The position numbers and the translations under genes were made by a program. From Spartobacteria bacterium (lineage in GTDB: Bacteria; Verrucomicrobiota; Verrucomicrobiia; Chthoniobacterales; UBA10450): a stretch of DNA of 64,000 nucleotides. This document shows positions 19,648 to 51,652 of this stretch, piece after piece (position 1 is the first letter of the stretch; each line of letters starts with the position of its first letter). Location of the stretch: NCBI GenBank assembly GCA_003167555.1, contig PMSN01000011.1:186001-250000 (forward strand), in the 5' to 3' direction. The notes beneath the pieces were generated by a model, which saw only the letters and a list, made by a program, of their open reading frames with translations, made no database searches and had not been told where the DNA came from.

Positions 19648-19807
19648 TGTCATCCTGAGCCGCGCAGACGGCGAAGGACCTCACATTCGCAATCCGCGCT
19701 ATCGCGAGACAAGTTCGCATTATTCGCAGATGGCGCGGCAATGAAACGCGGAAGCGTTCAGGGTAATTGCGAGATCCCTCGGCGCGCTGCGCCAGCCTCG
19801 GGATGAC
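19648..19807. repeat. about 160-bp palindromic dispersed element (family A)
   Basis: Left end TGTCATCCTGAGCCGCGCAG, right end ...GCCTCGGGATGACA: terminal inverted repeats with a variable centre. Related copies are at 25715-25871, 38799-38955 and 42661-42814. It lies between two convergent genes. Confidence 0.9.
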
Positions 19808-24426: not shown

Positions 24427-24623
24427 GAAAACGTCGAACGCCCAACGCCGAACGTCCAATATCGAATTAGAGGCATCCCGAAAACGCTAGTCATCCTGAG
24501 CGGAGCGAAGCGGAGTCGAAGGACCCCGTGGAGCATCGCTCGACACACGACGGGGTCCCTCGACTTCGCTCGGGATGACGGGCTGGCGTCTAGTGCATTC
24601 GGCGTTCGGCGTTGGACGTTTTC
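24427..24623. repeat. nested palindromic repeats in divergent cbiX/aldo-keto reductase gap
   Basis: An outer inverted repeat (GAAAACGTCGAACGCCCAAC near 24427 against GCGTTGGACGTTTTC ending near 24623) encloses a second palindrome at 24490-24579 with ends GTCATCCTGAG and CTCGGGATGAC. The inner unit belongs to the same family as the copy inside uvrC. The layout suggests one element inserted in another. Confidence 0.82.
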
Positions 24624-25714: not shown

Positions 25715-25871
25715 TGTCATCCCGAGCCGCGCAGACGGCGAGGGACCTCACAGCTGCCTTAGTCGCTTCCGCGTCCCATTGCCGCGTGATCTGCGGACCA
25801 CGCGAACGTGTCGCGCGAAGCGCAGCCCGCGACTGTGAGGTCCTTCGCCGTCTGCGCGGCTCAGGATGACA
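25715..25871. repeat. 157-bp palindromic dispersed element (family A)
   Basis: Ends form 38-bp terminal inverted repeats with two mismatches: TGTCATCCCGAGCCGCGCAG at the left and CTGCGCGGCTCAGGATGACA at the right. It fills the convergent gap between the aldo/keto reductase and PBP2 genes and could fold as a long hairpin acting as a bidirectional terminator. Confidence 0.94.
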
Positions 25872-27820: not shown

Positions 27821-29449
27821 TCAATGCCGCTCGAGAAAGCGGTGCACTTCCTCAGCGAGCTTCGGCCCGATCCCTTCCGTGGCCGCGATTTGTTCGACAG
27901 TCGCTTTGCGCAGTCGATTCACCGAGCCGAATTTTCGCAGGAGCAGACTCTTGCGGTTCTGGCTCACGCCCGGGCAATCGTCGAGAATGCTTTCGCCGAT
28001 GCGCTTCTTCATCAGCAGCTGATGGTAAGTGTTTGCGAAACGATGCGCCTCGTCCCGGATGCGTTGGAGCAAACGCAATGCGCCTGAATCCGGCGGCAAG
28101 ACTAAGGGCAGCGCGCGGCCGGGCCGGTAAATTTCTTCGTACTCCTTCGCGAGACCGATGATCGGCAGCTCATGCAAACCGAGCCGTTGTAACTCGCGGC
28201 AAGCGGAAGACAATTGTCCTTTGCCGCCGTCGACGATGATTAAGTCCGGTAAACGCACCGCGACATACCTGTCATCCCGAGCGAAGTCGAGGGACCCCGC
28301 CGCCGAACGTGCCGGTAACTCCGCGGGATCCCTCGACTGCGCTGCGCTTCGCTCGGGATGACGGGCGAGCGCTTCCACCGGATTTTCCTGAGAAAACTCT
28401 GCCGCGTCGGGGTTCGCCTCGCGCGCCTGCAGGAGCACGCGCGAATAGCGCCGTCGCACCACCTCCGCCATGCTCGCAAAATCGTCCTGGCCTTCCACGG
28501 TCCGGATCCGATAGCGCCGGTAATTGTCCTTGTCGGGAACGCCGTTGCGAAAACACACCATCGAAGCGACCACGTGCGTCGTGGAGATGTTCGAGATGTC
28601 GAAACATTCCATGACCGCGGGAAGACGCGTGAGCTGAAGCGCATCGGCCAGCGCTTGCACATCGCTCGCTGGATCGATCGTGCTCGGGAGACTGTGGCGC
28701 GTGAAGCGCCGCATCGGTTTCGTCGTGCGGCGCAAATCCTCCAGCATGTTGCGCAGCTCCGCCGCTTTTTCGAAATCGAGCTTTTCCGCGGCCTTTCGCA
28801 TTTCGTCCTCCACCGCCGCCATCATCTCGCGCGAATGTCCTTCCAGAAAATCGCACGCCTGCGCGACCCGTTCGCGATACAACTCCGCGCTGATTTCGCT
28901 CAAGCGCGTCGGCACCTGATACGTGGCGGATTTCAGTTCGCGCTCCGTCGGCGAACCGCGCCCAAATGTGAGCACGCCAAATTTCTTCCGCATGAAGTTG
29001 AGTGTTTGCCGCAACGCACCGGCGTGTGCGTACGGTCCGAAATAGCGGGCACCATCATCTTTCTTGAAGCGAGCCAGGCGAAACCGCGGCCATTCTTCCA
29101 TCGGGTCGACTTTGACGACGAGAAAGCGCTTGTCGTCGCGAAAGGAGATGTTGTAACGCGGCCGATATTCCTTGATCAACTTGCCTTCGAGCAAAAGCGA
29201 CTCCGGTTCACTCTGCACCGTGTGCGTCTCGAAATCCCAGACGGCGTCGAGCATCGCGCGGGTTTTCAGATCGGCCTGCGCCATTTTCGACGGCATGAAA
29301 TACGAGCCGACGCGCTTGCGCAGGTCGCGCGCTTTCCCGACGTAGATGACGCGGTTGAATCGGTCGCGCATAAGATAGACGCCGGGCTTGTGCGGCACCT
29401 CGTGCACCTTCTTGTTCAAATCGGGTTTTTCCTTTGCGGACGAAGCCAT
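27821..29449 (-). CDS. uvrC: excinuclease ABC subunit C, with a repeat-derived in-frame insertion
   Basis: A 542-residue UvrC. Order: GIY-YIG nuclease (PGVYLMRD, VIYVGKARDLRKRVGSYF), UVR motif (EKLDFEKAAELRNMLEDL), RNase H-like nuclease with CFDISNIS and LPDLIIVDGGKGQ, and C-terminal helix-hairpin-helix (LLRKFGSVNRL, TEGIGPKLAEEVHRFL). It makes both incisions in nucleotide excision repair with UvrAB. Residues of about 363-393 are encoded by a palindromic repeat at 28271-28362, which interrupts the nuclease domain just before DGGKGQ while keeping the frame. All other motifs are intact. Confidence 0.95.
   Translation of the reverse strand: MASSAKEKPDLNKKVHEVPHKPGVYLMRDRFNRVIYVGKARDLRKRVGSYFMPSKMAQADLKTRAMLDAVWDFETHTVQSEPESLLLEGKLIKEYRPRYNISFRDDKRFLVVKVDPMEEWPRFRLARFKKDDGARYFGPYAHAGALRQTLNFMRKKFGVLTFGRGSPTERELKSATYQVPTRLSEISAELYRERVAQACDFLEGHSREMMAAVEDEMRKAAEKLDFEKAAELRNMLEDLRRTTKPMRRFTRHSLPSTIDPASDVQALADALQLTRLPAVMECFDISNISTTHVVASMVCFRNGVPDKDNYRRYRIRTVEGQDDFASMAEVVRRRYSRVLLQAREANPDAAEFSQENPVEALARHPERSAAQSRDPAELPARSAAGSLDFARDDRYVAVRLPDLIIVDGGKGQLSSACRELQRLGLHELPIIGLAKEYEEIYRPGRALPLVLPPDSGALRLLQRIRDEAHRFANTYHQLLMKKRIGESILDDCPGVSQNRKSLLLRKFGSVNRLRKATVEQIAATEGIGPKLAEEVHRFLERH
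28271..28362. repeat. palindromic repeat inserted within uvrC
   Basis: Left end GTCATCCCGAGCGAAGTCGA, right end TTCGCTCGGGATGAC. The same unit type occurs at 24490-24579 and as partial copies near 31537 and 50277. It adds about 30 residues to UvrC without breaking the frame. Confidence 0.93.
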
Positions 29450-31521: not shown

Positions 31522-31590
31522 AACGAGAATAATAGCGAGAGATTCCTCGACTTCGCTCGGAATGACAAAAAGAGAGGGCTGGCCATTTCT

Positions 31591-38798: not shown

Positions 38799-38955
38799 TG
38801 TCATCCCGAGCCGCGCAGACGGCGAGGGACCTCACAACTGCAATTCGCGCTATCGCGAGAAACTCAGGCGTGATCTGACGTAGACGCCCACGATAGCGCG
38901 GAAGCGGTTAGCGCGCTTGCGAGGTCTCTCGCCGTCTCCGCGGCTCGGGATGACA
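38799..38955. repeat. 157-bp palindromic dispersed element (family A)
   Basis: Begins TGTCATCCCGAGCCGCGCAG and ends GCGGCTCGGGATGACA, with an internal conserved GCGCTATCGCGAGA segment shared with 19648-19807 and 42661-42814. It fills the convergent gap between the GT9 gene and dnaN. Confidence 0.93.
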
Positions 38956-42660: not shown

Positions 42661-42814
42661 GTCATCCCGAGCCGCGCAGACGGCGAGGGATCTCACAAAT
42701 GCAATTTGCGCTATCGCTAAACCTCACGCGCGATCTGACGTTGACGTCCACACTAGCGCGAAAGCGATTGAGCGCGTGAGAGGTCCCTCGCCCTCTGCGC
42801 GGCTCGGGATGACA
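42661..42814. repeat. 154-bp palindromic dispersed element (family A)
   Basis: Begins GTCATCCCGAGCCGCGCAGA and ends GCGGCTCGGGATGACA. It fills the convergent gap between the secreted protein gene and def. Confidence 0.93.
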
Positions 42815-50215: not shown

Positions 50216-50257
50216 TTTTTTCGTCAGGTCGAGCGAAGGCGAGACATCCCCGTGGAG

Positions 50258-51556
50258 TTACCTGTCCGTTGAGCCGCGGGGTCCCTCGACGTCGCTTCGC
50301 TCCGCTCGGGATGACAAACTGGGAAGACTGGCCAAATACGCAAGCATCTCTTCATTTCCAATGAGCTGTTCTTCACGACTGGCCAAGGTCTTGACCCTTA
50401 CCTGCGGCCACTCGTCGCCGAAGAGAATCGCGACACGCGCGCCCAGTTGCTCGGCGGTTTGGAACTGCTTTCCGACCTTTGCGGCGGTGAGTGAATAATC
50501 GACGCGATAGCCTCGGTCGCGCAGTGCCTGGATTTTTGCGAGCGCATCGGCCCGCCGCTCTTCCTTCGCGATCACGATATAGATATCCAGGTTCTGTTCC
50601 GTAGCGATGGCGGTTCCCAATTTCTCTCTTGCCGCCTGGGTTTCACCAATCAATTCGCCGAGAACGACGTCGCCCATGGCGAAGCCGAGCGCGGGGAGTG
50701 AGACGGCGCCATCACTGAGTTGAGCGATGAGATTGTCGTAGCGGCCACCGCCGGCGAGCGCGCGCAACTTGCCGCCGCGATCGAATGCCTCAAAAACGAC
50801 ACCGGAATAATAAGCGAGTCCGCGCACGATCCCGAGATCGATTTCCACGAAGTCGGCGAGACCACGAACTCGGAGAGCGGCCAGCACTCGATCCAATTTT
50901 TCGCTTCCACCTTTTCCATCGAGAATCTTGAAAGCCGGCTCGGCCAGCGGACCCAGTTTGACGGCCGTCTTCTCCCGCGGCTCGCGCTCGCTCCTGTCGA
51001 TGATCTGCAGGATTTCCTGCCAATTTTCTTCCGGCACGTTCTGGGTCCGAAGAAAATCGATCCAGAATTCACGATCGCTTACCCGAACGACGAAATCGTT
51101 TGCGGCAAAACCAAACGCACGCAAGAGATCGACGCAGAGCGCGATCAGTTCGACATCGGCGTCGAGCGAATCCTCGCCGATGATGTCGGCATTGAATTGG
51201 AAATGCTCACGGAGCCGGCCGCGTTGCTGCTTTTCGTAACGGAAACATTGCGGGATCGAGAACCACTTGAGCGGCTTCTTGAATTCGCGCTCATGTGCCG
51301 CGACGACCCTCGCCAGAGTGGGGGTGAGTTCGGGGCGCATCGCCACTTCGCGTTCGCCTTTGTCGGTGAAATTGAAAAGCTGCGTGACGATCTCCGCGCC
51401 GCTTTTTTTCGTGTAGAGATCCGTCGGCTCGAGCACGGGTCCGTCCCATTCCACGAAGCCGTAGCGGCGCGCCACTTCCCGCCAGCGATCGAAGATGTAA
51501 TTTCGCGCGGCGCAATCCTGCGGCAGAAAATCACGGAAGCCTGGGAGCGGTTGCAT
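50258..51556 (-). CDS. hisS: histidyl-tRNA synthetase, with repeat-encoded C-terminal tail
   Basis: A 432-residue HisRS starting at MQPLPGFRDFLPQDCAARNY. Motif 1 region, motif 2 (FRYEKQQRGRLREHFQF), the histidine-specific region (RGLAYYSGVVFEAFD) and the anticodon-binding domain (VDYSLTAAKVGKQFQTAEQL) are intact. The last residues (SSRAERSDVEGPRGSTDR) are encoded by a half-copy of a dispersed repeat at 50277-50315, so the native C-terminus has been replaced or extended. Confidence 0.96.
   Translation of the reverse strand: MQPLPGFRDFLPQDCAARNYIFDRWREVARRYGFVEWDGPVLEPTDLYTKKSGAEIVTQLFNFTDKGEREVAMRPELTPTLARVVAAHEREFKKPLKWFSIPQCFRYEKQQRGRLREHFQFNADIIGEDSLDADVELIALCVDLLRAFGFAANDFVVRVSDREFWIDFLRTQNVPEENWQEILQIIDRSEREPREKTAVKLGPLAEPAFKILDGKGGSEKLDRVLAALRVRGLADFVEIDLGIVRGLAYYSGVVFEAFDRGGKLRALAGGGRYDNLIAQLSDGAVSLPALGFAMGDVVLGELIGETQAAREKLGTAIATEQNLDIYIVIAKEERRADALAKIQALRDRGYRVDYSLTAAKVGKQFQTAEQLGARVAILFGDEWPQVRVKTLASREEQLIGNEEMLAYLASLPSLSSRAERSDVEGPRGSTDR
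50277..50315. repeat. half-copy of the TCATCCCGAG-type palindromic repeat in hisS 3' end
   Basis: Contains GGGGTCCCTCGACGTCGCTT and the end CGCTCGGGATGACA, matching one arm of the units at 24490-24579 and 28271-28362. It supplies the HisS tail in frame. Confidence 0.82.
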
Positions 51557-51563
51557 TATTGAA

Positions 51564-51652
51564 GGTAGGGACGCCGCGCTGCGGCGTCCGTTTCTCGCGA
51601 CTGAATTATTTCGCCGCAAATAAGGCGGACGCCGCAGCGCGGCGTCCCTACC
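51564..51652. repeat. palindrome with 27-bp perfect arms
   Basis: Left arm 51564-51590 begins GGTAGGGACGCCGCGC; right arm 51626-51652 is its exact reverse complement, with a 35-bp centre. It lies in the divergent gap between hisS and the Thr-rich secreted protein gene, 7 bp from the hisS ATG. Confidence 0.96.

Follow-up and report, generated by a model that had tools for sequence, protein, structure and literature searches.

The uvrC gene of the window, a stretch of 64,000 nucleotides from a Spartobacteria bacterium, contains a 92-bp near-perfect palindrome at 28271-28362 that lies in frame and encodes 31 amino acids. The palindrome belongs to a dispersed repeat family, termed R1 here, and judging from sequence comparisons and a structural model, it is very probably a non-autonomous palindromic repeat that inserted into a tolerant loop and was kept as a translated passenger. 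The genome of the window (G000) belongs to the Chthoniobacterales (Verrucomicrobiota), and its nearest named relatives are Spartobacteria/Chthoniobacterales metagenome-assembled genomes, many of them from palsa and soil. The features of the window relevant to this assignment were as follows.

27821..29449, minus strand: uvrC, excinuclease ABC subunit C (ORF of 542 aa, assigned by Pfam and by TIGR00194 above cut-off)
28271..28362, minus strand: in-frame palindromic repeat, family R1, 92 bp (UvrC residues 363-393, RHPERSAAQSRDPAELPARSAAGSLDFARDD)
24490..24579, no strand given: R1 copy, intergenic (nhmmer E 1.8e-23; 79% to the uvrC copy)
50224..50315, no strand given: third R1 copy, between hisS-like and aspS-like ORFs (nhmmer E 3.6e-14)
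31536..31566, no strand given: single-arm R1 remnant, intergenic (nhmmer E 8.8e-06)

The insert and its structural setting

The major data for the insert were its fold and its likeness to other copies. The predicted fold of −71.5 kcal/mol (z −7.35) was equaled by none of 200 dinucleotide shuffles, and the outer ends read TGTC on one side and CGTC on the other. An nhmmer profile made from other genomic copies, without the uvrC copy, recognized the latter at an E value of 1.8e-20 and also found the copy at 24490-24579. These data bear out the original prediction, which had placed a palindromic repeat inside uvrC, matched it to the repeat at 24490-24579 and proposed that the open frame adds about 30 residues. 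The gene is a single open frame in the ORF list, and the 31 residues, which include HPERSAAQSRDPAELPAR, would be translated as part of the protein.

The product of uvrC has the Pfam domains GIY-YIG, UVR, UvrC_RNaseH_dom and HHH. When the genes of G000 and its relative G005 were compared outside the insert, 36, 17 and 229 differences were found at codon positions 1, 2 and 3, respectively. This concentration of divergence at third positions indicates that uvrC is functional by that criterion and is not a pseudogene, a condition under which the prediction would have failed. From the same comparison, purifying selection is seen to act on uvrC outside the insert, and the insert-bearing enzyme is presumably of normal activity. 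A search of G000 found the window gene as its only full-length uvrC match; even so, the description of the enzyme as essential was too strong and is unproven. Standard laboratory bacteria can do without nucleotide excision repair.

The insert was also predicted to interrupt the nuclease domain. It does lie within the RNase H-like domain, just before the strand with the catalytic Asp of the DGGKGQ motif, but in a hypervariable loop and not in the catalytic core. A stretch of about 57 residues in the window UvrC corresponds to only 2-4 in the three UvrC nuclease domains of solved structure. In the AlphaFold2 model, pLDDT was below 50 at residues 365-395, the lowest of the whole protein, while the RNase H fold beside this stretch was intact and matched 2nrt and 3c65; the best PDB matches of the model were UvrC C-terminal domains. 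The low confidence of this stretch suggests that the insert forms a disordered loop, which is presumed to be solvent exposed.

Empty and filled loops among relatives

The segment is absent from close relatives, among them other members of the family, and from distant UvrCs; its presence in the latter would have refuted the prediction. No more than 10 loop residues separate the EAL motif from VRLPD in the same-genus genomes G001 and G002 or in G013 and G017. The insertion point and frame are identical in G000, G005 and G016, whereas L037 uses a different frame for its repeat (VIPSEAERSRGIP), and insertion points vary among carrier species. The genus as a whole holds a mixture of R1, heptamer and empty loops.

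The loop was surveyed in 96 distinct UvrC sequences. The palindrome profile matched 17 of the 96 loops at 16.7-69.6 bits (1920 shuffled loops scored at most 8.0), and one further loop fitted a sister family, B, at 23 bits (shuffles at most 10.8). Three more loops were labeled as palindromes on weak scores or resemblance. All 18 of the R1 or sister-family matches in uvrC open frames fell in this loop, with none elsewhere in the gene. Loops of other species were labeled by eye as heptamer arrays of AATCCGC, CCAACGY or ATCAACY; the first two heptamers are also dispersed elsewhere in the tested genomes, with none found for reversed controls, and ATCAACY is sparse there.

Several separate insertions into the loop are likely, because the carriers do not all use one frame or one insertion point. 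A single ancient insertion inherited by all carriers would explain the identical point and frame in G000, G005 and G016, but it is unlikely in view of the different frame in L037, the other insertion points and the mixed loops of the genus. On a UvrC tree made without the loop by a quick method, and having many weak branches, it would also have to accommodate 11 changes of the palindrome label, at least 7 of them forced by starred branches.

R1 in other genes and the fate of the insert

Similarity searches, each of which scored at most 40 candidates, recovered at least 63 distinct R1 copies of 75-110 bp from G000. The arm CTCGGGATGAC, which is common to a second family, occurs 111+116 times in this genome compared to 0+0 times for its reversed control. 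The copy at 50224-50315 encodes the last 19 residues (LSSRAERSDVEGPRGSTDR) and the stop of the hisS-like ORF at 50258-51619 (minus strand). The intergenic copy at 24490-24579 is nested in an inverted pair of CCAACG-type heptamer repeats (24427-24452 and 24598-24623). A second, longer family of palindromes of about 155 bp, whose outer GTCATCC arms are common with R1, is found at 19649-19807, 25716-25870, 38800-38954 and 42661-42813. The window also holds two direct repeat pairs, at 578-772/1472-1666 (195 nt, 98%) and 58451-58586/59516-59651 (136 nt, 81%). No known RNA family was recognized for the repeat, as Rfam gave no match within 18000-52000. The repeat is also not adapted to be coding, since R1 copies have on average 3.06 open frames of six compared to 3.66 in shuffled sequence.

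A minority of R1 copies is intragenic. A copy was counted as intragenic only where Pfam supported the gene, and the genes given come from a sample of copies. Within G000, the internal in-frame copies lie in dnaE, tgt, ileS and, at two sites of one fused frame, uvrA. Among relatives, G005 carries R1 in uvrA and dnaE; G016 in uvrA, at another site of ileS, and in an aminotransferase class-V/cysteine-desulfurase-like gene; G033 and G034 each in dnaE; and G022 in pheT and an IMS_C-containing, Y-family-polymerase-like ORF. Alignment to solved structures placed the tgt insert where known proteins have about five residues, and it introduced a gap into the ileS stretch. Candidates without a Pfam domain (L196, L209, L213, L252, L253, L270, L263, L278 and others) were taken to be chance frames, and copies that precede a probable start (lysA-like, nuoD, polX, aspS-like and others) were left out of the intragenic count. 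The uvrA frame of G000 (L226, G000:C23:149000-154500) has at least 1833 aa and resembles two UvrA bodies fused in tandem. Of its two R1 inserts, one is close to the beginning of the retrieved frame and the other is in the linker; the linker insert is also present in G005 (L260) and G016 (L288).

Genes of repair, replication and tRNA account for 7 of the 8 gene families with intragenic R1, a hint of a bias to information-processing genes. This clustering exceeds what would be expected of a pure passenger unless such proteins are unusually tolerant, and it could instead reflect a protein-level function, in which a flexible loop tunes UvrC, for example through contacts with DNA or UvrB, and repair and replication proteins are recurrently modified. 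The recurrence of several repeat types in one UvrC loop would agree with such a function, as would the presence of in-frame R1 in uvrA, dnaE, ileS, tgt, pheT and the polymerase-like ORF and the report of the same gene classes for unrelated REPs (PMC3733652). It was nevertheless considered improbable, because the loop peptides are unrelated in sequence, some species of the same genus are without the insert, and the codon positions of the insert differ about equally between G000 and G005 (1/3/3), with no selection on the peptide visible. As a broader proposal, the UvrC RNase H loop of the Chthoniobacterales could be a recurrent acceptor of unrelated repeats, with palindromic repeats kept in repair, replication and tRNA proteins far above other genes because disordered additions modulate them; taken together, this is a tentative idea and rather doubtful.

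The insert has diverged differently from the gene around it. Between G000 and G005, 3 of its 31 third positions differ, compared to 43% in the rest of the gene (P 5.9e-5), and divergence this low was seen in none of 436 windows of the same size in uvrC. The insert was therefore not simply inherited and left to drift like synonymous sites. L020 and L125 gave the opposite picture: their inserts differ at 17 of 99 sites and third positions elsewhere at 3.5%. The near identity of these two genes with strongly unlike inserts suggests a recent replacement. Both patterns would fit replacement or homogenization of the insert by other copies. The insert of G000 is 92% identical to that of G005, whereas identity to the further G000 copies in the comparison reached at most 84%, so that simple conversion from the latter is less likely. 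The G000/G005 pattern could also reflect DNA-level constraint or independent insertion, and the passenger reading needs the addition of one of these, or of homogenization, to account for it. A comparison of filled and empty uvrC loops by eye, across flanks that have diverged, showed no clear target duplication.

The strong fold of the window copy and its very low third-position divergence could also mean that the DNA or RNA hairpin is kept and not the peptide, acting for instance on mRNA stability or translational pausing. Among carriers, hairpin z values span −7.3 to about 0 with the frame kept open, and L020, L028, L093, L100, L108 and L133 keep the frame with a hairpin that has decayed to z near 0. 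The hairpin is thus not generally required, and this decay series rules out a conserved hairpin as a general explanation. The L020/L125 insert, moreover, diverges far faster than its gene, and retention for the sake of the hairpin is held to be quite unlikely. Finally, misjoining of a repeat into uvrC during assembly is most improbable, since independent assemblies (PLCM01, PNAA01 and others) carry in-frame inserts flanked on both sides by uvrC, even though the genomes are mostly metagenome assembled and repeats are error-prone there.

For the favored reading, a translated passenger, the following sequence of events is proposed. An element of about 90 bp, with the build of a head-to-head REP dimer and CGTC/TGTC at its outer ends, would enter uvrC where the gene encodes an exposed loop of variable length in the RNase H-like nuclease domain. 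The element carries stops in some frames only; where the frame is open, the ribosome would read through and UvrC would gain about 30 disordered residues. Selection would discard copies that break the gene and tolerate those in disordered loops, and the palindrome would later decay to an ordinary peptide or give way to another repeat. One loop of one enzyme offers a natural series of empty loops, fresh palindromes, decayed palindromes and heptamer arrays, in which the question of whether such inserts are neutral or alter repair is directly testable.

Comparison with known repeat classes

In-frame REPs within repair genes are known, and the CGTC-tagged REPs include RPE-4 and RPE-6 of Rickettsia (Di Nocera, De Gregorio and Rocco 2013, PMC3733652). 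The same functional gene classes hold in-frame inserts of unrelated REPs, and those authors speculated that repair and replication proteins are modified recurrently by such repeats (PMC3733652). The literature search for UvrC with in-frame palindromes gave nothing beyond this paper.

Like the CGTC REPs, R1 is dispersed, forms head-to-head dimers, has outer ends of CGTC or TGTC with AT next to them, was found with no dedicated transposase at its side, and occurs in frame in nucleotide excision repair, dnaE and tRNA-related genes. Most of 30 listed R1 copies show CGTC or TGTC at an end (the class tag being CGTC, TGTC or CCTC), and almost every copy recovered consists of an inverted pair whose tags face outward. 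No transposase was found beside R1 in uvrC, and the flanks retrieved for the five Y1_Tnp matches in G000 hold no R1 or B element. The dimensions differ: CGTC REPs have stems of 8-9 bp and loops of 4-5 nt, whereas an R1 unit measures about 45 nt, its inner stem being long and weak and its center of 20-odd nt variable. By eye, the unit ATCCCGAGCGAAGTCGAGGGAT gives about 5 bp plus an internal loop, and the strong R1 fold forms between the two units. On these sequence features, R1 is best called CGTC-REP-like and not a member.

The likeness to Rickettsia palindromic elements drawn in the original prediction holds through the in-frame insertion in conserved genes (uvrC, uvrA, dnaE, tgt and ileS), with CGTC-type REPs as the closest described class. 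As outlined in PMC10969869, which cites Ogata et al. 2000 and 2002, those elements are likewise palindromes, roughly 100-150 bp long, that lie in frame in conserved genes. They belong to another lineage, however, and R1 is no more open than shuffled sequence and is intragenic in a minority of copies; the likeness is one of behavior.

The GTAG REPs of Opitutus terrae (Verrucomicrobia) form double inserts in both uvrA genes (PMC3733652). The phylum and the in-frame uvrA inserts are common to both, the window genome also having two inserts in one uvrA frame, but R1 has no GTAG end and no RAYT-type gene beside it. Mobilization by a RAYT had no support, as the retrieved flanks of the Y1_Tnp genes hold no such repeat. 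MITEs resemble R1 in being short and dispersed, with terminal inverted repeats and no gene of their own. For R1, the comparison by eye across diverged uvrC flanks showed no clear duplication of the target, and a parent transposon was not found.

REPs inside repair genes are a kind already known. The present data repeat the finding of in-frame palindromes in repair, replication and tRNA genes and, as far as the papers searched show, extend it to a lineage new to them, the Chthoniobacterales.
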